A DNA stretch of 29,307 nucleotides. Source: a virus. This document shows, one piece after another, positions 2,791 to 13,852 of this stretch. The first letter of the stretch is position 1. The number at the start of each line of letters is the position of its first letter. The notes under the pieces are model-generated. The model did not search any database. It was given only the letters and a program-made list of their open reading frames with translations, and was not told the DNA's origin. The stretch covers positions 6,563 through 35,869 of IMG/VR virus record IMGVR_UViG_3300000232_000003; one strand, 5' to 3'. The position numbers and the translations under genes were made by a program.

Positions 2791-3043
2791 GATTTATGAT
2801 AGTTCTGACGAACCTCTTATGATAGTATTGAATGCAGAAGAGAAACTGCTAATAAGCAACATGGCTCCAGAGGCAAATACGTTTTGCACGGGACCATCAA
2901 CATCCGGCGTATATGAGTTAACTGAGTTCATGAGGACCTCGCCTCCAAAGCCAATACCTCCGCCTACAAGAAGAATGTATGAAAGCGGTAGATTAGAAGG
3001 CGAACCAACTTGGTGGCAGAAGTTAATTAAATTGTTGTTTTAA
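2768..3043 (+). CDS. Conserved-type small phage protein
   Basis: A 91-residue protein with GGAGG eight bases before the ATG. The N-terminus (KVKIGNKIYDSSDEPLMIVL) resembles a small hypothetical protein that recurs in Firmicutes phage genomes with the form KIGNK-Y-S-DEP-M-IL. A proline-rich stretch (TSPPKPIPPPTR, about 58-68) and an aromatic, basic C-terminus (TWWQKLIKLLF) follow; the last could be an amphipathic membrane- or partner-binding tail. No function is known to me. Confidence 0.6.
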   Translation: MKVKIGNKIYDSSDEPLMIVLNAEEKLLISNMAPEANTFCTGPSTSGVYELTEFMRTSPPKPIPPPTRRMYESGRLEGEPTWWQKLIKLLF

Positions 3044-3176
3044 AATAGGAGCTTAGGATAAAAACCATACCTTGCCAGACCCTGGTAGAATTACAAACGG
3101 CGGGTAGGTAATATAAATTTATGGACCCGAAATAATCAAAATCTAAGAGGGTCTATGGTATTTGGAGGTGTATTCG
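3044..3176 (+). other. Non-coding stretch with competing inverted repeats
   Basis: No ORF with a ribosome site is present. ATGGACCC (3121-3128) can pair with GGGTCTAT (3149-3156). AGACCC (3077-3082) could instead pair perfectly with GGGTCT (3149-3154), and CCAG/CTGG can form a small hairpin at 3075-3085. TACCT (3069-3073) and AGGTA (3106-3110) could also close a larger stem. The position, between pre-terminase genes and the large terminase, is where packaging (cos/pac) sites or a translation switch for the next gene could lie. It could also be neutral sequence. Confidence 0.35.
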
Positions 3177-3416
3177 GTGAAATTAAGGCAAGATAAGTTT
3201 AAGACTCCGCAAGATTTATGCAATTGGGTTAACGATAATGCATTATCGATAACTGTTGTAGGTGTTTGTAATAACGAATTCATGGAGTATGTTTTGTTTT
3301 ATACTGCAGAAGGAGAAGTTATTAGGGAAAATAAACCAGAATTTGATGCTGAAGAAATATGGCAAAATAGAATGAATAGAAGAGGTGGTATAGATGGCTC
3401 CAAAAAAGAAGATTAA
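3177..3416 (+). CDS. Small hypothetical protein before terminase
   Basis: A 79-residue protein. GTG at 3177 is chosen because GGAGGT (3164-3169) precedes it by seven bases; an in-frame TTG at 3162 lies on top of that ribosome site. The protein begins with a helix (TPQDLCNWVNDNA), followed by a beta-hairpin-like stretch (SITVVGVCNNEFMEYVLFYT) and a charged, probably disordered end. No family is recognised. It overlaps the large terminase gene by 23 bases, so the two are probably translationally coupled. Confidence 0.55.
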   Translation: MKLRQDKFKTPQDLCNWVNDNALSITVVGVCNNEFMEYVLFYTAEGEVIRENKPEFDAEEIWQNRMNRRGGIDGSKKED

Positions 3417-5274
3417 AAAACAAGGAATAGTCGACGAATCTTCAATATTTGGCCTTATACCAGGGATGTTTGGTGATATTGATGAACTTATGAAGGACAA
3501 AGACCCTAAAGAAGTTTCATTCGAATCAGCTTTAGGCCAAATGGCAGACTATTTTGAGTCAGAAACAAATAGACAATTGGATGAAGGAGGGTCGTTTGAT
3601 GAGATATGGGAGTTTGAACCCGTAGATACATTAACATTTTGTACTAGTCCAGAATATTTGAATCTTGGCAATGAGATTTATCCAGTAGTATTACAGGATT
3701 TAGCAGATACGTTCCCTGGTGACCCGAAGCAGATGAAGCCAAAGCATGAAGAGATTATATTTGATGAAGCCATAGGTTCTGGTAAGTCTTTTAAGCTGTC
3801 TATTTTGGCGACTTATATGGCATATAAGTTACTGTGTCTTAGAAATCCACAGAAGTTCTTTAAATTGGCTCCAGGTTCTAAAATAGCTATAATGAACATG
3901 TCAGTTTCAGCAAGCCAAGCTAAGAGAGTTGTGTTCGGTGAAATAAAAAACAAAACAGACTATAGTCCGTGGTTCCAGAAACATTATCCACCGAATCCTA
4001 GAATACGTTCTGAACTTCAGTTTGACCCGTCGCCTGAAAATATTAAAAAGGCAGAAAGAAGAATATATAAAAACATATATATTATACCAGGTTCTTCATC
4101 AGGTATGGCACCATTAGGATATAACCTATTTTGCGGTATTATAGATGAAGCAACTCTATGGAGAGATACTGAAAACAAGGATTATGTAGAAGATGTTTAT
4201 AATATCATAAGACGAAGGGTAACTTCTCGTTTTATGGACAATGGTTTGATAGTTCTTGGTGGTTCTCCAATGTATAGCACAGACTTCCTTGAAAGAAGAA
4301 TTAAAGATGTTAAGGATGGGGATATAACCAACGTAATGGTTCGTAGAAGAAGCCATTGGGATGCTAAATATCCAGACTATAAAGGCCCAATGTTCTATTT
4401 TCATTTGGAAGATTCGAAGGTATTTAAAACTGAGGAAGATATGCTTAATGACAGGGATAAAGTAGCCAAGAGGGCTGGCAATAACTGGAAGATGGCATTA
4501 GAGTTATACGATAAACAAATAAATAAGATACCAATGATGTATTATGAAGACTTCTATAAGAATCCTGAAGGTTCTAAGAGGGACCTTGGAGGGTGGCCAT
4601 CTGATGCTATAAGTTCGTTCATAGAAAACCAATCTATCATCGATGAAAGTGTTAATTTTGATAGAGCAGACCCTGTCAGAGCGCCTTTCTTATTCAAAAA
4701 ATGGTTTGGACCGAGAAAAACCAATGCATGGCATGCTTTACACATCGACCTTGCAATATCCGGTGATGCTTGCGGTATTTGTATGGCTCACGATGAGGGA
4801 TTTACTGAAGAAGGAGGCGTCAAAGTATGGATTGACTTCTTGATGAGAATTCAAGGTACTAAAGAGGAGCCAATTCAAATTGAAAGCATACGTGAGATGA
4901 TTTATAGGCTATCAAAGATGGGTTTTCCTATTGGACTAATCACGATGGACGGCTTCCAGAGTGTTGACAATATGCAAATATTGAGGAAGAAGGGTTATAA
5001 TACTGAATACCTGTCGCTTGACAGATCGCTAGTTCCATATGAAGAGTGGAAAGCGGCTTTAAACGAACATAGAGTTGAGACTTATAATCATGATTGGAGA
5101 AATAAGGAAGCTAAGAAGCTTGAAAAGATTAAAAATAAGAAAATAGACCATCCTAGAGGCGGTTCTAAGGACTGCACTGATGCAGAAGCTGGTGCAGTTT
5201 ATGACTGCGTTCAATTAGCTTCATGGGACCCACCAACTAGCGATGACGACACAAGTGAAGTATATAATTTTTAA
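3394..5274 (+). CDS. Terminase large subunit (ATPase-nuclease)
   Basis: The 626-residue DNA-packaging motor. Walker A is EAIGSGKS (G128-S132) and Walker B is CGIIDEA (D251, E252), followed by a coupling-type segment LIVLGGSPM (about 285-293). The C-terminal RNase H-like nuclease has D452 (HIDLAISGD), D519 (LITMDGFQS) and D593/D596 (SKDCTDAEA), the expected three acidic positions. It docks on the portal, translocates DNA with ATP and cuts concatemers. The ATG is preceded by GAGGTGG. The first ten residues are Lys-rich. Length is normal for long terminases of Firmicutes myoviruses. Confidence 0.95.
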   Translation: MAPKKKIKKQGIVDESSIFGLIPGMFGDIDELMKDKDPKEVSFESALGQMADYFESETNRQLDEGGSFDEIWEFEPVDTLTFCTSPEYLNLGNEIYPVVLQDLADTFPGDPKQMKPKHEEIIFDEAIGSGKSFKLSILATYMAYKLLCLRNPQKFFKLAPGSKIAIMNMSVSASQAKRVVFGEIKNKTDYSPWFQKHYPPNPRIRSELQFDPSPENIKKAERRIYKNIYIIPGSSSGMAPLGYNLFCGIIDEATLWRDTENKDYVEDVYNIIRRRVTSRFMDNGLIVLGGSPMYSTDFLERRIKDVKDGDITNVMVRRRSHWDAKYPDYKGPMFYFHLEDSKVFKTEEDMLNDRDKVAKRAGNNWKMALELYDKQINKIPMMYYEDFYKNPEGSKRDLGGWPSDAISSFIENQSIIDESVNFDRADPVRAPFLFKKWFGPRKTNAWHALHIDLAISGDACGICMAHDEGFTEEGGVKVWIDFLMRIQGTKEEPIQIESIREMIYRLSKMGFPIGLITMDGFQSVDNMQILRKKGYNTEYLSLDRSLVPYEEWKAALNEHRVETYNHDWRNKEAKKLEKIKNKKIDHPRGGSKDCTDAEAGAVYDCVQLASWDPPTSDDDTSEVYNF

Positions 5275-5286
5275 GGAGGGAAATAA

Positions 5287-7005
5287 ATGGCTGAGAAAAT
5301 CAGAAAAAATGCCCAAACAGATGGCAATATGGGTTCTCAGATAATTAAAAATTCATCTGACGATGCAGTTTCTGATTTGCCTACAGAAGATTTGCTTAAA
5401 AATGTTGTATTTAAGCAAAGACAGCAAGCAGGCAATAAGATACAGAAACCTATGGCAGGTAGCGACAGTAAGCAACTTGAAGATGAATTTTCCCAGGAAT
5501 ATGGTGAAAACATCATAGTTCCACCATATAACCCGCTTCTTTGGGCCACCTTGATGGAAGTTAACACGAGACTTGGTAAGTTGATAAGGACTTATGCAAG
5601 AAATACAGTAGGTTTAGGTTGGGAGATTGTATCTAAAAAACCTATAACTAAAAAAGTTAAAAAGGCTGAGAGAGAGGCTATTGAAGAGGAAAAAGAAAGA
5701 CTTGAAGAATTTTTCAAGAATATAAATCCGTTACTACCGTTCGAAGAAGTTTGTTTTAGGGCAAAGATTGACGAAGAAGCAATGGGTAACGGTTATGTCG
5801 AAGTTACAAGAGATTTAAACGGAAAACCTCTTCACGCATACCACGTATCTGGCCATACCGTTAGAGTCCTAAGCAATAGAAAAGGATTCGTACAGATAAG
5901 AAATGGTTCAAAAGTGTTTTTCAAAATATTCAATGGCGATTTTGATATGAATTGTGAAACTGGAGAGGTTGGCAATAAGGGTAGTTTAGAATATAATTTG
6001 CGTGCTACTGAAATAATTCCGTTTCAGATATATACGCCAAGGGATTCGTATTATGGAATACCAAGATATGTAAGTACTGCTGACGCTATAGCAGGAAATA
6101 AGCTTTCTGCACGTAGAAACTTGGCATTCTTTAAAAACGATGCTACTCCAAGATTAGCAATTACTGTTGCAAACGGCCAATTGACAACTGGTTCTATACA
6201 AGATATAAAGGATTTTGTAAACAGTGAAGGTAAAGGCGTAGATAATGCTCATAGGGTTATGATTCTTCAAGCAAAAGCTAAACAGATGGGTGATATGACT
6301 CAGCAAAATGTTAAAATAGATGTAACACCTCTTACTGTTGGCCAGACAGATGATGCTTCATTTATTAAATATAGGGATGCAAATGATGAAGAAATTAGAG
6401 AAGCTTTTGGTATTGGTGAAGTATTCCTTGGTTCTAAAGGTTCTGTTAATAGAGCTACAGCTTCAGTAATAAGAGAAATCACAAATAATCAGGAGTTTAT
6501 ACCAGATGCAAAAGTTAAAGAATTCATGATTAATCAGACAATCTGTAAAGACCTTGGTGCTAAGTTATGTGAATTCAAATTCAAAAGACCTTCAGCACTT
6601 GGTGAGCTTGATATGGCAGACATATTCGCAAGATACTTGCAGGGTGGAGGTATTACCCCAAATGATATTAGACATCAGCTCGGTAAAGAAGAATATAAAG
6701 AAGATTGGGCAGACAAACCAATACAAATCGGCTTAGTTGAATTTCAAATGGGTCTTCTTGGAGCAAAAGGGGCAGCTGCAGGCGGCGATAATACCAAGAC
6801 TGAGTCTAACGAAGAAGATGACGATGAAGGTAATAATAATAAGGAAGGCGATAAAAATACTTCTAAAAAGGGTTCTAATAACTCTAATAATGCTTTAAAC
6901 AATGCTGAAGTTGAAATGGTTACAGCAAAATTACTAAATACTATAAACGGAATGATAGAGAAAAGTTTATCAACTGCAATAATCGATCTTGACGCAGTAG
7001 AATAA
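5287..7005 (+). CDS. Portal protein (PBSX-type)
   Basis: The 572-residue portal forms the dodecameric DNA channel at one head vertex and binds terminase and connector. The start has AAGGAGGG eight bases upstream. Family-like segments include IVPPYNPLLWATLMEVNTRL, TYARNTVGLGWEI, YIPRDSYYGIPRY-like FQIYTPRDSYYGIPRYVS, and EIREAFGIGEVFLG with a following RATASV, which match the portal core and tunnel region of PBSX/XkdE-like portals. The last ~75 residues are a Gly/Asn/Asp/Glu low-complexity linker (about 498-540) ending in a short helix, an unusual extension that may contact scaffold or protease. It directly follows terminase, as in most such phages. Confidence 0.9.
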   Translation: MAEKIRKNAQTDGNMGSQIIKNSSDDAVSDLPTEDLLKNVVFKQRQQAGNKIQKPMAGSDSKQLEDEFSQEYGENIIVPPYNPLLWATLMEVNTRLGKLIRTYARNTVGLGWEIVSKKPITKKVKKAEREAIEEEKERLEEFFKNINPLLPFEEVCFRAKIDEEAMGNGYVEVTRDLNGKPLHAYHVSGHTVRVLSNRKGFVQIRNGSKVFFKIFNGDFDMNCETGEVGNKGSLEYNLRATEIIPFQIYTPRDSYYGIPRYVSTADAIAGNKLSARRNLAFFKNDATPRLAITVANGQLTTGSIQDIKDFVNSEGKGVDNAHRVMILQAKAKQMGDMTQQNVKIDVTPLTVGQTDDASFIKYRDANDEEIREAFGIGEVFLGSKGSVNRATASVIREITNNQEFIPDAKVKEFMINQTICKDLGAKLCEFKFKRPSALGELDMADIFARYLQGGGITPNDIRHQLGKEEYKEDWADKPIQIGLVEFQMGLLGAKGAAAGGDNTKTESNEEDDDEGNNNKEGDKNTSKKGSNNSNNALNNAEVEMVTAKLLNTINGMIEKSLSTAIIDLDAVE

Positions 7006-7276: not shown

Positions 7277-9280
7277 TTGAAAAGAGATATTGTTTCTAAA
7301 AGAAAAATTAAAGAAATTAACTCTCGTCTAGATAATACTATAAATAATGTAGAAGACATTGACACTTGTATTATAAAAGGCAATAGAGGGTTTGTACATT
7401 TCATGACTAAAATAGCTCAATGGAATAAAAACTCCACAAATAAACCAGGAGTATCATCTGCATTCCCTTCACAATTGAATTATGGAGTATTTGGAGATTC
7501 TACTGGAGCTTTAGCATGGGACAATATTCCAAGTGCACATTCTAATAACGTTTTCCCTTTTGAAGGAGTTATGGCTAAATTGGGAAAAGCAAGTGCAAGA
7601 TGTACAGGACAACCACCTCTTACAGTAACTGGTGATTGTTGGGAAGCAGATGGCACGGCTGGTAAGCTTTTTGACTATTCTGTGCATCCGGCTGGATTAT
7701 ATAGACATCTTGGAAATGGTGCCACATTAAGGTCGTCATCTACGCAATACGGTACAGAAACATGTTTATATTATATTAAAGAACCAGGAGCTGGAGTATT
7801 TACTTTTGCATTAAGAGATAATGCTGATGCAGTACCCATATCAGTAAATGGTGTAGAAGCTACAATATCAGATATTAGTTGTGATAATGCTCTAGGTGCT
7901 GGTAAAGCAGGATTTTGTTATATGACAATACTTGGAGTTGGGGCTACTGCAGGTAAGTTTCAACTTGGTTTTGGAAATAATTGGACTGCAGATTTATTAT
8001 ATAATGATTCAGCTGCAAATGTTCAAGCTGCACTTGAGGCACTGCCAAGTGTTGGTGTCGGAAATGTTGGAGTAACAAAATCTGGAACAACATGGACTAT
8101 ATTAATAAAATCAAACAACTTTGGCTGGCAAACAATAAAATGGAGAAATGGTTCTACTGTTTTAACAGGATATCTTACATTTGGACTAGCAGGTCAGCGT
8201 CATATTAAAATGACAGTCACTAGTGGTACTGTAAGAACCTGGAACCCATATAATATAAACAGACACGTAAATGGTGTAGCTAGCTATAATTTGGCTAGAG
8301 GCGGTTTAAGACTAGGTGACACTATACAATGGAATCAAGATATCGCCAATAGCATCTTAGGAGATATGAAACTAGATTTTTGTTCTTTTGCTTGGACGTC
8401 AGGTCAAGCAGCACAACGTACACTTACACAAGTTCCGTTTACTGCTACTCCGTATACAGTGACAGATTTAAGAACTTATTTTAATTCATTTATTTTAAAA
8501 CTTGAAACAGCATCTCCAAATACAGATTGGGTATATCAAAGCTTTCCACCAAGTTCATCTAATCCAGACGATTCAATAATAAATGAAGCAAATCCAGCTG
8601 CAAAAGAAATAGTAGAAGCAGCAGGTCATGTATGGATCGATACAGATGCTGCACTAATTACAAAGGTTAATGGTGAAGTCAAAAAAGGTTGGAGCTTGTT
8701 AACTTACTTAGATGGCTATTCTCAGCCAGGAGATTTTGTAACCGGGGCTGCTCAAAATCAATGGTGCGGTGACGGAATACATCTTGGAGGTTCATATCAT
8801 TCATTTGTTGGTTCATTAATAAGTAAACAAATTGGATTATATGACTTTATGGGTATTCTTAACTGGAATCGCTTAAATACCGATTACGGTATAATAGCTG
8901 GTCAAGGTTTGGATTTCTCTAATGGCCCTGGTGCGCAGAACGCATTTAGATTAATGGCAGACCAAACATTTTCATCAGACGCAGTATTACAATTATTAAA
9001 TTCAAACAGGTGTGTAGTAATTAAAGATAGTGCTGGAAATGTATGTGTGCAATTAGGTACAATCAATGACCACAGTAACGGATTAGGAAGCTATTTTGCA
9101 TATCCATTACATTTTGGGACTTATAATGGTCCTCAAATTAAAGGAGGTTCTGGTTCTCCAGAAGGCGTAGTAACAGCAGAACAAGGTTCTATATTTTTAC
9201 GCAAAGATGGTGCTGGTAATACATCAATTTATATAAAAGAATCTGGTGGTATTAGTAATACTGGTTGGGTACCAAAATAA
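7277..9280 (+). CDS. SGNH/GDSL esterase-like virion protein
   Basis: A 667-residue protein with a TTG start preceded by AAAGGAAGTGA. After a helical N-terminus (1-50), YGVFGDSTGAL gives the GDS nucleophile motif (S75), and GDGIHLGGSYH gives the D-x-x-H pair (D499, H502) expected of SGNH hydrolases, which deacylate or deacetylate glycans and lipids. A clear GxND block was not found, so activity is uncertain. Residues about 215-300 (NDSAANVQAALEALPSVG) form a beta domain common in phage structural proteins, inserted within the hydrolase. The C-terminus (GSPEGVVTAEQGSIFLR to TGWVPK) is a fibre-type module. Location between portal and protease suggests a head-associated fibre or a transferred cargo gene rather than a tail spike. 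Confidence 0.7.
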   Translation: MKRDIVSKRKIKEINSRLDNTINNVEDIDTCIIKGNRGFVHFMTKIAQWNKNSTNKPGVSSAFPSQLNYGVFGDSTGALAWDNIPSAHSNNVFPFEGVMAKLGKASARCTGQPPLTVTGDCWEADGTAGKLFDYSVHPAGLYRHLGNGATLRSSSTQYGTETCLYYIKEPGAGVFTFALRDNADAVPISVNGVEATISDISCDNALGAGKAGFCYMTILGVGATAGKFQLGFGNNWTADLLYNDSAANVQAALEALPSVGVGNVGVTKSGTTWTILIKSNNFGWQTIKWRNGSTVLTGYLTFGLAGQRHIKMTVTSGTVRTWNPYNINRHVNGVASYNLARGGLRLGDTIQWNQDIANSILGDMKLDFCSFAWTSGQAAQRTLTQVPFTATPYTVTDLRTYFNSFILKLETASPNTDWVYQSFPPSSSNPDDSIINEANPAAKEIVEAAGHVWIDTDAALITKVNGEVKKGWSLLTYLDGYSQPGDFVTGAAQNQWCGDGIHLGGSYHSFVGSLISKQIGLYDFMGILNWNRLNTDYGIIAGQGLDFSNGPGAQNAFRLMADQTFSSDAVLQLLNSNRCVVIKDSAGNVCVQLGTINDHSNGLGSYFAYPLHFGTYNGPQIKGGSGSPEGVVTAEQGSIFLRKDGAGNTSIYIKESGGISNTGWVPK

Positions 9281-9303
9281 TATTAATGAAAGGAGGAAGT
9301 AAG

Positions 9304-11379
9304 ATGGCAAGTATAGAAGTAAATAAGTCGTTTCAGTTTGGAGCAATAGTTGTTAATGCTTGGAAAAATGAAGAAAGTGGTAAGCATTATATAAAAGCTA
9401 TTGCGACAGATACTGAAGAAGACTCTCACGGAGAGAGAATTTCTGAAAATGGTATTATCGGTATGGCAAAATGCGTCAATAGCAAATCACCTCACATAGT
9501 AGGACTTCTTCCAAATCATTGGAATGCCTTTGAAATAGGTATTTGTGAAAATGCATCTGTTATTGATAGTCCGGAAATACATGGAGCTAAAGCTCTTGAA
9601 GTTGAGATTGAACTCAATATGGACTATCCAGAATCAAGGTCTCTTTATATGGAGTGTAATGAAAAGAAAAGTAAAAAACAATTGTCGATTGGAGGTTACT
9701 TAAATCCAGAAAATGAGACTCCATATTATTGGGAGCCAAAAGTTTATGTAGACGGAGGCGGCAATGTAGTTCAGGATTGGACATTAGTTCTTGATGATGT
9801 TATTCTTGAACATATAGCAGTAACAAGACAAAATAAAGCTGCTAATGGAAGAACAGGATTCGTTGGTACCATTGCAAAATCTCTTGGCATTGAAAAACCT
9901 GAAATACCAAAAAACAATGCAAAAGGAGGTTTAGTAATGGCCAAAAATCAGGAAAATAAAAAGTTCTGGGAAGTAAAGAATGTTGCTGAGAAAAAGGGAG
10001 AACTTCTAATTTATGGCGACATAGTCAACTACAGATGGTATGAGGAAGATGTATCAGCTAATAGTTTGATTAAAGATTTAAAAGCTCTTGGCGACATCAC
10101 TCAGCTCGATATTAGGATTAATTCTGGTGGAGGTAGTGTCTTTGCTGCTGCAGCTATTGTAAGTTATCTTAAGAGTCATAAAGCTTATAAGAATGTCTAT
10201 ATCGATGGTCTTGCGGCTTCTGCAGCTTCTGTTATTGCAATGGCCGGTGATACTATTTATATGCCATCGCATGCTATGATGATGATTCATAACCCATCTA
10301 CAATAGCATGGGGGGATTCAAGAGAAATGAGAAAGACAGCAGACGTTCTTGATAAAATCAGGGATTCCATTGTTAATGCATATCAAGTCAAATCTAAAAA
10401 AGATACACAGGTTATAGTTGATTTTATGGATGCAGAGACATGGTGGACTGGAAAGGAAGCAGTAGAACAGGGGTTTGCAGATGTGGTTCTTGATAATGTA
10501 GAAATAACCGCCTACTATAAAAATGATATTTTAAATGTAAACGGTATAAACTTCGATACTTCAAAGTTTATTAACAAATCAAGAATGGAAGATACCATCA
10601 ATAAAGTGGTGTCTGTTGAAATTCTCAAAAATAAGGATGCAAAGGAGGGGATTATTCATATGTCTAATGGTAATAAGAAACAAGCTGATGGTTTGAAGGC
10701 GCATTTAACCAATGCTATCAATGCTTTCTTTGGCGAAAAGGCTGAAGACAATAGCCAGAAGATTGAAGACACAAGGAAAGCGGTTGAGAACGCTAAGAAA
10801 TTAGTTAGTTCTTTAAATACTGCCGAATTGCCGGACGATCTAAAGGAGTTTGTCGATAAGCTAAATGCCGCTACAGTTACCGAACCTGCTGTTAAAGTAG
10901 AAGGTGAAGAAGCAGCTGTAGAAGAAAAAGTTGAAGAAAAGCCTGCTGACGACAAAGCAGAAAAACCTGCTGAAGCTGCAGTAGAAGAGCCTGCTGTTGA
11001 AGATAAAACACCGGCAGCAGAAGCACCAAAAGATACTATAGATGCAGAAGCATTGAAAAATGCTATAGTTGCAGATATTAAAGCATCGCTTAGTGCTGAC
11101 AACAAAAAAGCTTTTGAAGAGATTGCAAAATCTCTAGGCACCGTAATTGGCGATGTGATAAAAACTCAAGTTCAGCCATTAAACGAAAAGATTGCATCAA
11201 TCGAAAAGGCTGCTGGAGTAAGTAAAAGCATTGAAGGGCAGGAAAAACCAAAGGCTACAAACAAATCTACAGCTGCTGCTGAAACTGATAAAGAATCAGG
11301 AGACTTGTGGACTGGTTTCATAACCGATGCACTTCCAAAAGAATTTTATAATAAAAAATATAATGAAACGGAGGAATAA
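9304..11379 (+). CDS. XkdF-like + ClpP-like protease fused to scaffold
   Basis: A 691-residue polyprotein. ATG 9304 is used because AAAGGAGGAAG precedes it. Residues ~1-205 resemble the XkdF/S78 prohead protease fold: DSHGERISENGI, LLPNHWNAF (H72), KQLSIGGYL (S128) and VILEHIAVTRQNKAANG. Residues ~220-430 are a ClpP-related head protease: INSGGGSVFAAAAI, DGLAASAASVIAMAGD (nucleophile S306), MMIHNPS (H329) and MDAETWWTGKEAVEQGFAD (acidic D376/E378). Residues ~453-691 are an acidic Ala/Glu/Pro-rich scaffold with terminal helices. In-frame internal starts at M212 and M453 fall on the domain borders, so 480- and 239-residue products are likely, as for lambda C/Nu3. It precedes the capsid gene by five bases. 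Confidence 0.88.
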   Translation: MASIEVNKSFQFGAIVVNAWKNEESGKHYIKAIATDTEEDSHGERISENGIIGMAKCVNSKSPHIVGLLPNHWNAFEIGICENASVIDSPEIHGAKALEVEIELNMDYPESRSLYMECNEKKSKKQLSIGGYLNPENETPYYWEPKVYVDGGGNVVQDWTLVLDDVILEHIAVTRQNKAANGRTGFVGTIAKSLGIEKPEIPKNNAKGGLVMAKNQENKKFWEVKNVAEKKGELLIYGDIVNYRWYEEDVSANSLIKDLKALGDITQLDIRINSGGGSVFAAAAIVSYLKSHKAYKNVYIDGLAASAASVIAMAGDTIYMPSHAMMMIHNPSTIAWGDSREMRKTADVLDKIRDSIVNAYQVKSKKDTQVIVDFMDAETWWTGKEAVEQGFADVVLDNVEITAYYKNDILNVNGINFDTSKFINKSRMEDTINKVVSVEILKNKDAKEGIIHMSNGNKKQADGLKAHLTNAINAFFGEKAEDNSQKIEDTRKAVENAKKLVSSLNTAELPDDLKEFVDKLNAATVTEPAVKVEGEEAAVEEKVEEKPADDKAEKPAEAAVEEPAVEDKTPAAEAPKDTIDAEALKNAIVADIKASLSADNKKAFEEIAKSLGTVIGDVIKTQVQPLNEKIASIEKAAGVSKSIEGQEKPKATNKSTAAAETDKESGDLWTGFITDALPKEFYNKKYNETEE
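9921..9939 (+). promoter_or_regulatory. Internal ribosome site and ATG for ClpP-scaffold product
   Basis: AAAAGGAGGT lies seven bases before an in-frame ATG (9937, residue M212 of the 9304 gene). The site falls in the Lys/Asn/Pro linker between the XkdF-like and ClpP-like domains. Spacing and strength equal those of the ordinary gene starts here, so independent initiation of a 480-residue ClpP-scaffold protein is likely. Confidence 0.65.
10641..10662 (+). promoter_or_regulatory. Internal ribosome site and ATG for scaffold product
   Basis: AAAGGAGGGG precedes an in-frame ATG (10660, residue M453 of the 9304 gene) by about eleven bases from the AGGAGG core. It marks the end of the ClpP-like domain and the start of the helical acidic scaffold, so a free 239-residue scaffold is expected, as in lambda Nu3. 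Confidence 0.6.
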
Positions 11380-11384
11380 TAACA

Positions 11385-12695
11385 ATGGCTAAAGAAGTAA
11401 ACAGTCAGGAAGAAATCCTAAAAACCATTGAGACTTCTGACTTTGCTAATGGTGGTTTGCTTGACCCTAAGCGTCAGAAGCAGTTTTTAACCTATGTAAG
11501 GGATTACGGCAAAATGATGCCGATGGTAAGATTTGAAAGACTTTCTCAATCACAGATGACTCTTGATAAGTTATATATCGGAGAACCTGTTACTGAGTCT
11601 GTAGAAGAAAACACAAACACTGCAAATCTTGCAAAGGTGGCTACTGGCCAGGTTCACTTACAGACAAAGAAATTGAAATCAAGCTGGAACATCACTACTG
11701 AAACTTTGACTGAGAACATTGAGCAGAAAGGTTTCGAAACAACAATGATGCAGGGTATGACAAAGAGGATCGCAACAGATATCGAATTACTTGCAATCCA
11801 GGGTGACAGAACTGCTTATAACGGAGCAACCGACGTATTCGGAAGATTGTTAAAAAGAGCAAACGGTTGGGATAAACTCACAGAGTCAGCTCATATCCTT
11901 GATGTTGGCGGCGCTACCATTCAGAAGGGAATCTTCGCAGAAATGGTAAGGATGATGCCTCAGCAGTACTTGCAGGACCCTGACCTTAGATGGTTTGTTT
12001 CCAAATCAGTTGCAATTGACTGGATGGATTTACTGTCTGATAGAGGAACAGCAGTTGGTGACAATGCATTGAATGGCAATAGCGTATCTCCTTACGGTAT
12101 TCCTTTGACAGAAGTTCCTTTGCTTCCTGACAATAAGTCAGTAACTTCCTATGCAGGAAAAGCTGCTATCGTTGTTGGAACGCAACCCGATCCTTTTGAA
12201 ATTGTAACCGGAACAAATGACAAGTTGATAATCGTTATTGATGGCGGTTCACCTGTTACTGTTACCCTTCCTGCTGGAACTCATAGAGTTGGAGCAATTG
12301 CTGCAGTAATCAATGCAACTTCTGGCCTTGCTGGAATAGCTGCTGATGATACTCATGGTCGCTTGGCTCTTAAGTCCAGAACTACAGGTTCTACTTCCTC
12401 AATCACTCTTTCTGCAGTAGCAAACGACGCTTACGATGAACTTGGTTTATCTGAAGCAACAGTTACTGGAACAAACAGTGGAGCTTTGACTACAACCAAA
12501 GACGGTTCATTCATCTGGTTGGCAAATCCAAAGAACTTCATTGCTGCAATGAGAGGCACTACAAGAATCTACACTGAGTTTAATAAAGATTATGACCGTG
12601 TTGAAACAGTTATCTACAACGAAGTTGACTTCTCAGTAGAAAACGACGATGCGATCGTAAAAGCTATCAACCTCAGAAAAAGAGAATTGATATAA
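11385..12695 (+). CDS. Major capsid protein, HK97 fold with insertion domain
   Basis: A 436-residue capsid subunit with GGAGGA upstream of ATG. Family signs are the N-terminal helix region (LDPKRQKQFLTYVRDYGKMM), the spine and E-loop region (TGQVHLQTKKLKSSWNITTE), a P-domain helix (ELLAIQGDRTAY) and the A-domain end (FIWLANPKNFIAAMRGTTRI, YDRVETVIYNEVDF). Between PYGIPLTEVPLLPD (~250) and GSFIWLANP (~374) lies an extra ~120-residue beta domain with INATSGLAGIAADDTHGRLA and VTGTNSG, resembling the Ig/IN-type modules of phage surface proteins. It is probably displayed outside the shell. The gene is followed at once by a terminator. Confidence 0.93.
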   Translation: MAKEVNSQEEILKTIETSDFANGGLLDPKRQKQFLTYVRDYGKMMPMVRFERLSQSQMTLDKLYIGEPVTESVEENTNTANLAKVATGQVHLQTKKLKSSWNITTETLTENIEQKGFETTMMQGMTKRIATDIELLAIQGDRTAYNGATDVFGRLLKRANGWDKLTESAHILDVGGATIQKGIFAEMVRMMPQQYLQDPDLRWFVSKSVAIDWMDLLSDRGTAVGDNALNGNSVSPYGIPLTEVPLLPDNKSVTSYAGKAAIVVGTQPDPFEIVTGTNDKLIIVIDGGSPVTVTLPAGTHRVGAIAAVINATSGLAGIAADDTHGRLALKSRTTGSTSSITLSAVANDAYDELGLSEATVTGTNSGALTTTKDGSFIWLANPKNFIAAMRGTTRIYTEFNKDYDRVETVIYNEVDFSVENDDAIVKAINLRKRELI

Positions 12696-12787: not shown

Positions 12788-13345
12788 ATGGCAAAAGTGA
12801 AAAAGTTTATAGGCAAAGGCCTATCAAACATGGAAGCCCTTGAAGGTATTCTTGTGGATATCGCTAAGGACCTTAAAGCTGTTAAAGACGCATTTGATGC
12901 ACATATTCATGTAATTACCGCAGCTATCAAAGCTACAGGCACTGTAAAGGTAGCTACAAATGCGCAAGCAAACGATACTGCAACTGTAGCAGGAGTAGTA
13001 TATAAGTTTGTCGTTGCACCGGCAGCTGCAAATGATGTTAAGATTGGCGCTGATGTTAATGCATCTGCTTTAAATCTTAAGAAAGCAATTAATCTTGAGG
13101 CAAAGACAGATGAATATGGTACTGGAACAGTAATACATCCAACAGTATCAGCAACAGTTGCTACAGACACCGTTACAGTAAGCGCAAAAACGGCTGGAGT
13201 AGCAGGTAATGCACTTGGTTTGGCAGTAAGTAATGCAAGACTTGAAGTTTCTGCAGCTAATTTAGCTTCTGGAGCTGATGGTGTAGTAGTAGCTGCTGTA
13301 ACTACTGCAGAAAAATTTGATGTTCTTACAGTAGAAGATAACTAA
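12788..13345 (+). CDS. Head decoration-type beta-domain protein
   Basis: A 185-residue Ala/Val/Thr-rich protein with GGAGGGA before its ATG. Residues 1-45 are helical (MEALEGILVDIAKDLKAVKD). Residues ~50-165 form a beta domain with the pattern DTATVAGVVYKFVV, ASALNLKKAINLEAKT, DTVTVSAKTAGVAGNALGL and NLASGADGV. This matches a module widespread in phage head-decoration and fibre proteins (G-x-TV-tAktaG-aGN). It directly follows the capsid gene, the usual place for decoration proteins, so binding to the outer shell is inferred. Attachment to a tail part cannot be excluded. Confidence 0.65.
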   Translation: MAKVKKFIGKGLSNMEALEGILVDIAKDLKAVKDAFDAHIHVITAAIKATGTVKVATNAQANDTATVAGVVYKFVVAPAAANDVKIGADVNASALNLKKAINLEAKTDEYGTGTVIHPTVSATVATDTVTVSAKTAGVAGNALGLAVSNARLEVSAANLASGADGVVVAAVTTAEKFDVLTVEDN

Positions 13346-13363: not shown

Positions 13364-13852
13364 GTGGCTTATTTTGATTTAATAAGTGCCCATAGTTATA
13401 AGATGTCAGGATTTTCTGGCACAAGATATTGTTTTTACAAAGGCAAACCTGTTGAAATTGATGCAAGTGATGCTGAAAAATTCAGAATGCACAAAGATAT
13501 ATTCTTTGAATGTGATGAGAATGGACAAGCGCTTACTGCAGCAAGCAACCCAGGTGGTGCTAAAACGTTTGTTACATTTCGACCAAACATTGCGAACAGG
13601 GATGTTAAAATCGAAGAGGATAACAAGCAAGCAATGGAGCAAAGGAAGGCTGGCGTAGACGTAAATGAACTTCTTAAAGAAGTAAATAAAGATGCCAGCG
13701 ATAAGAAGCCTGATGTTGGAGACGGCAAGGCTAAGAAAGAAAAGAAAGTTAAAGTTGCGAAGAATCCTTTGGAATGTGAACTTTGTGGCTATATTGCAAA
13801 GGATACTGAAGACTTAAGGTTACATCTTGATAAACATAGTGAAGAGGATTGA
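13364..13852 (+). CDS. Head protein with C-terminal C2H2 zinc finger
   Basis: A 162-residue protein with a GTG start and AAAGGAGGCG upstream. Residues 10-75 (SGTRYCFYKGKPVEIDASDA, FRMHKDIFFEC) resemble the small YqbF-type head proteins encoded between capsid and connector genes in PBSX-like phages. A long charged linker (85-134, many Lys/Glu/Asp) leads to CELCGYIAKDTEDLRLHLDKH: C138-x2-C141-x12-H154-x3-H158, an exact C2H2 finger with the hydrophobic positions of the classic fold. Such a finger usually binds nucleic acid or protein. A role binding packaged DNA or a partner at the portal vertex is inference. Confidence 0.7.
   Translation: MAYFDLISAHSYKMSGFSGTRYCFYKGKPVEIDASDAEKFRMHKDIFFECDENGQALTAASNPGGAKTFVTFRPNIANRDVKIEEDNKQAMEQRKAGVDVNELLKEVNKDASDKKPDVGDGKAKKEKKVKVAKNPLECELCGYIAKDTEDLRLHLDKHSEED

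Follow-up and report, generated by a model that had tools for sequence, protein, structure and literature searches.

Accounts of head maturation in tailed phages generally have a single protease in each phage. In lambda, the scaffold start lies inside the protease gene (C/Nu3), and this arrangement is well established. Comparable nesting occurs in Mu and Mu-like phages, where the scaffold also starts within the protease gene (PMC4378225), and in herpesviruses, where UL26 and UL26.5 are in-frame overlapping genes for protease and scaffold (PMC4498786). Among jumbo phages, the head peptidase families are complementary between groups (PMC7824862).

Several described gene types are close to the locus reported here. 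In XkdF-type genes (PF14550, Peptidase_S78_2) of PBSX-like phages and in the S78 genes of Stanwilliamsviridae (PHROG 9427), an N-terminal protease-like domain is followed by scaffold; these genes sit between the portal gene and a capsid gene of the XkdG/PHROG-1623 type. Genes of the NF045542/PHROG 94 kind, such as those of Paenibacillus phage phiERICV and Fusobacterium phage Funu1, encode a catalytic ClpP domain and then scaffold, upstream of the capsid gene. Finally, NF045540 describes a ClpP-like prohead protease fused to the major capsid protein.

The gene analyzed here, from a window of 29,307 nucleotides within a 42.6 kb virus record, resembles each of these types in part. Like both S78 types it lies between portal and capsid genes and has an N-terminal protease-like domain and a C-terminal scaffold; its C-terminal tail resembles the PBSX type and its internal scaffold start the Stanwilliamsviridae type. 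Unlike in those genes, however, the first domain is not recognizable by profile, and a ClpP domain stands between protease and scaffold. With the NF045542/PHROG 94 genes it shares catalytic ClpP, scaffold and position, whereas an S78-like N-terminal domain was found in 0 of the 16 cultured-phage loci of that kind examined. As in lambda, Mu-like phages and herpesviruses, scaffold is encoded in frame inside the protease gene with a C-terminus in common, but this gene has two putative proteases and as many as three nested starts. NF045540 likewise joins a ClpP head protease to another head component, although its partner is the capsid protein rather than a second protease, and the score here is 206 bits, below the cut-off of 475. 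We found no description of an S78/XkdF-ClpP fusion in the titles and abstracts searched, a scope that covered few subscription journals.

The fused gene and its protease-like domains

The features of the locus, in window positions, are:

5287–7005, + strand: portal protein (PF04860, PHROG 12)
9289–9296, + strand: Shine-Dalgarno sequence AAAGGAGG of the first start (ATG at 9304)
9304–11379, + strand: full open frame of 691 aa, with S78-like domain, ClpP-type head protease and scaffold
9304–9900, + strand: N-terminal S78/prohead-protease-like domain, residues 1–199 (from fold models, with no sequence-profile match)
9922–9939, + strand: putative internal start 2, AAAGGAGG (9922–9929) and ATG (9937–9939, M212), where the ClpP domain adjoins
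9958–10578, + strand: ClpP-related head maturation protease domain, residues 219–425 (NF045542, PF00574, PHROG 94)
10641–10662, + strand: putative internal start 3, AAAGGAGG (10641–10648) and ATG (10660–10662, M453), where the scaffold adjoins
10660–11376, + strand: acidic/coiled scaffold-like segment, residues 453–691, fast-evolving (31–51% identity)
11044–11376, + strand: conserved tail at the C-terminus of the scaffold, resembling the C-terminal end of PBSX-type XkdF (tail-profile match)
11385–12695, + strand: major capsid protein (PF05065, PHROG 1623), with relatives among the capsid genes of XkdF-bearing phages

The original prediction placed two protease-like domains of different fold and an acidic scaffold in a single 691-residue frame. 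The codons confirm the length and all four proposed catalytic residues: H72 (CAT, 9517–9519) and S128 (TCG, 9685–9687) in the N-terminal domain, and S306 (TCT, 10219–10221) and H329 (CAT, 10288–10290) in the ClpP domain. The acidic scaffold-like part is present C-terminal to the ClpP domain. The module runs from the terminase large subunit (called from a weak PHROG match) through portal, a 667-aa ORF, the fusion gene and the capsid protein to head-tail parts, sheath and tube, so that the fusion gene stands between the portal and capsid genes. The phage is best explained as contractile-tailed, with the fused gene as its head protease-scaffold gene.

Two further IMG/VR records carry the same architecture as an uninterrupted ORF: IMGVR_UViG_3300042923_001092 (L002; 107.6 kb), at 4001–6067 (688 aa), and IMGVR_UViG_3300020048_000052 (L014; 111 kb), at 3019–5190 on the − strand (about 723 aa). 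Each protein is about 59% identical to that of the window over its whole length. Scans of IMG/VR with the family alignments found no carriers beyond these two and the window record, and the family has three known members, all uncultured. The search of phage databases proposed with the original prediction was thus successful in IMG/VR, but the N-terminal domain was absent by tblastn from 50,697 cultured phages, as it was from 72,556 plasmids; no relative was found when a genome-contig collection was searched with it. One tblastn match (E = 7), in a phage contig from human feces, sits in an unrelated ORF and was rejected.

Chimeras are a general risk with metagenomic contigs, and nothing specific of that kind was found here. 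Because the fusion is intact in two other contigs at about 59% identity, with one unbroken frame common to three diverged contigs, each from its own IMG/VR record, a sequencing or assembly error joining separate genes, which the original prediction had named as its possible undoing, is ruled out for practical purposes. A programmed frameshift was rejected given that the frame is continuous in the three phages. Since this frame persists at about 59% identity, the fusion is old and has been kept.

That residues 219–425 constitute a ClpP-related head maturation protease is, on profile evidence, beyond doubt. The domain scores 208.7 bits against NF045542 (curated cut-off 120) and matches Pfam CLP_protease (PF00574, E = 3e-28) and PHROG 94 (E = 2e-82); each of the three records has a single ClpP match. 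S306 and H329 correspond to the ClpP catalytic pair and are conserved as in NF045542-type proteins, in agreement with their original assignment. NF045542 is a domain model; a gene start at the ClpP domain is usual in the family but not demanded by the model. Here 211 residues precede the domain, and we therefore regard the domain as an NF045542 member and the gene as a variant. The PHROG 94 match apparently spans residues 211–660, but we discounted this span as evidence of a ClpP-type tail, because the region is acidic, with low sequence complexity, and PHROG 94 does not match the scaffold segment when this is searched by itself.

The identity of the N-terminal domain is less direct. Residues 1–199 have no sequence match in Pfam, PHROG, NCBIfam or PDB; PF04586 and PF14550, run against the three family records alone, gave no match, a home-made profile of 80 S78 loci did not score, and hhalign of the domain against S78 was negative. 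AlphaFold2 models from two different query sequences are of low confidence (pLDDT 58.7 and 57.4). In Foldseek searches of BFVD, prohead proteases made up most of the best matches of the first model (E = 1.7e-6 and 5.9e-5); the second gave a weaker result, with a Dps-named top row (E = 4.4e-4) followed by prohead proteases. TM-scores of these matches were low (0.4), and a PDB fold search of the models returned no match. As to motifs, H72 is followed about 50 residues later by S128 in an LSIGG context, consistent with the His-Ser spacing and SIG/GFS context of S78 proteases. The order H72, LSIGG (128), LEHIAV...KAAN parallels H67, FSIGG (121), IELSLV..PAN in the S78 proteases of Streptomyces phages, and the longer motifs QLSIGG (with S128) and VILEHIAVTRxNKAAN are invariant in all three phages.

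From the predicted fold, the spacing of the motifs and a gene order shared with XkdF/XkdG head modules we infer that the domain is S78-like; for want of a sequence-profile match it is termed so here and not filed as a PF14550 member. The original assignment to XkdF/S78 thus has tentative support from structure searches, motifs and gene order but none from any S78/XkdF or PF04586/PF14550 profile. Of the outcome that the prediction named as refuting it, a lack of profile or structure matches for this segment, half came about: profiles gave nothing, but the structure search did bring up prohead proteases. Could the domain be some other head-associated domain in which Ser and His occur by chance? 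The missing profile and PDB matches and the low confidence of the models speak for this. Against it, both fold searches bring mainly prohead proteases near the top, the H, SIGG and E-x-I-A-V...AN motifs follow the S78 order, and the domain occupies the XkdF place in the module, and we regard such a domain as improbable.

Both domains are well conserved. Across the three phages, identity is 66–72% in the N-terminal domain and 70–79% in ClpP, compared with 31–51% in the scaffold, and linkers are mostly lower still. H72, S128, S306 and H329 are invariant in 3/3, which upholds the claim that each domain has plausible catalytic residues. For the N-terminal domain, pN is 0.19–0.22 and pS 0.63–0.75; for ClpP the values are 0.12–0.19 and 0.59–0.65. 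Judged by these rates, both protease domains are under strong purifying selection.

In-frame internal starts and nested products

Besides its first start, the fused gene contains two in-frame units of Shine-Dalgarno sequence and start codon that the original prediction had overlooked, AAAGGAGGT-6 nt-ATG at M212 and AAAGGAGG-11 nt-ATG at M453. Their Shine-Dalgarno strength equals that of the strongest genuine starts among the window's genes. Across the 23 window genes, a Shine-Dalgarno match of at least 7 bases was found before no further internal ATG or GTG in frame, and two or more such sites arose in only 3 of 20,000 codon shuffles. By a weaker statistic, with the protein held fixed, synonymous shuffling kept two AAGGAGG+ATG sites in 313 of 20,000 cases.

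The scaffold start (10641/10660) marks the border between protease and scaffold, as in known nested genes, and occupies the identical alignment place in all three phages despite differing protein sequence (KEGIIHM, KEGGISM, KGGSTKM). Its Shine-Dalgarno sequence is AAAGGAGG with a spacing of 11 in L002, and a weaker AAAGGGGG, with one mismatch, in L014. The ClpP start is also found in L014 (AAAGGAGG, spacing 7) but is absent in L002, and a separate ClpP product is therefore not required across the lineage. The scaffold start is an already known type of signal; the ClpP start is a new element. Judging from these signals, the internal starts probably also yield a ClpP-scaffold protein and free scaffold. 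The original picture of a single 691-residue polypeptide is right as to the continuous frame but probably incomplete, because the two internal starts most likely make shorter products too.

Non-fused S78 protease-scaffold genes offer a comparison. Among 73 of these (21 clusters at 70% identity), 70 have an in-frame AAGGAGG and ATG/GTG at the protease/scaffold border. The other ORFs of at least 200 aa from these loci had none (0 of 161), and codon shuffling produced the signal in 133 of 3650 cases. In the IMG/VR S78 loci L043–L122 the internal start lies near residue 250–280, and this border start probably marks, on sequence grounds, a nested scaffold gene that annotation has missed throughout Stanwilliamsviridae-like phages. 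Since in-frame units of this kind mark the protease/scaffold border, they could serve as a simple finder for scaffold proteins missed by annotation. Some ClpP-scaffold genes also have a putative start near the ClpP/scaffold border, with AAGGAGG or AGGAGG and ATG; we saw this in Faecalibacterium phage Lagaffe (L131, residue 280) and Fusobacterium phage Funu1 (L017, residue 234).

Origin and function of the fusion

The capsid and portal proteins are nearest to those of Streptomyces Stanwilliamsviridae, of Vibrio, Rhizobium and Stenotrophomonas phages and of the PBSX-like PBP180. In these phages an XkdF/S78 protease (PF14550/PF04586) occupies the place of the fusion gene, with the scaffold attached or in the next gene. 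A tail profile of the window family matched the XkdF C-terminus with E = 3.5e-7 (26 bits), against E = 0.0057 for the best of the shuffles, in a test set of mixed candidates, decoys and shuffles, in which L019 and L020, the family's own loci among the decoys, were ignored; it matched none of the ClpP-scaffold proteins in that set. Judged from this short coiled tail, the fusion gene thus seems XkdF-like at both ends, with ClpP as the probable newcomer in an XkdF-type gene.

Overall, we consider it probable that this is a protease-scaffold gene of S78-like type that also encodes a ClpP protease, with nested products comprising the full-length chain, ClpP-scaffold and scaffold alone. A ClpP-type head protease would have been joined in frame between the S78-like domain and the scaffold of an XkdF/XkdG-kind head module, and ribosomes would enter one message at up to three binding sites, all in frame. 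The products would be the whole chain, ClpP-scaffold from M212 (in two of the three phages) and free scaffold from M453. The C-terminal tail common to all of them would bind the capsid protein, and a few full-length and ClpP-scaffold chains would co-assemble with excess free scaffold in the growing procapsid. Because the tail is shared, the proteases could ride into the procapsid on free scaffold, and they would then cut out the scaffold and themselves.

The gene could instead have arisen by stop-codon loss between an adjacent S78-like protease gene and a ClpP-scaffold gene, in which case the internal ClpP ribosome-binding site would be a leftover and the joining would have no special function. 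In the window and L014 the ClpP domain does seem to begin as an ordinary gene would (AAAGGAGG, MAKN), the linker evolves fast, and the ClpP start has been lost in one relative. However, the uninterrupted frame has persisted in three phages at about 59% identity, and the tail of the scaffold is closer to XkdF than to the ClpP-scaffold proteins of the same test set, so that insertion of ClpP into an XkdF-type gene fits better than end-to-end joining. We consider such a merger rather unlikely.

How many of the domains work as proteases is a separate question. The original prediction took one head protease per phage as the norm, and this holds in the cultured-phage ClpP head-protease loci examined, 16/16 of which begin at the ClpP domain with no S78-like partner in the gene; the peptidase families of jumbo phages agree (PMC7824862). 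The same count favors a real fusion in which one fold matures the heads and the S78-like domain (or else ClpP) is retained for a role in structure or targeting. L002 has moreover lost the separate ClpP start, and a fixed stoichiometry may therefore suffice. Set against this are the invariant Ser and His of both domains and the similar purifying selection on them, and a single working protease seems to us possible but somewhat doubtful. From the conservation of both catalytic sites we favor two active enzymes. Of the roles raised in the original prediction, any of two-step maturation, a structural part for one domain and self-processing may apply. The fuller proposal, that two working proteases of unrelated folds are dosed into the procapsid by three nested scaffold-tailed products as a built-in cascade, is one we put forward tentatively. 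If true, a gene with two protease folds on one scaffold could represent either a protease replacement caught midway or a two-step maturation cascade.

Other genes of the head module

The 667-aa ORF between portal and fusion gene (7277–9280) is an unrelated one and, by eye, looks SGNH-hydrolase-like, with a GDS motif. Different small genes take its place in L002 and L014, so that the position looks like a cargo site. An insertion in the capsid protein (11385–12695) is similar to the flagellin hook IN motif, with a match below cut-off (PF07196, E = 0.001). A stretch that looks alike occurs in the adjacent gene at 12788–13345, and a decoration domain is a possible explanation. A further head-region gene (13364–13852) ends in a zinc-finger-like CELCGY...HLDKH (PF16278, E = 3e-4, below cut-off) and is conserved in L002 and L014.
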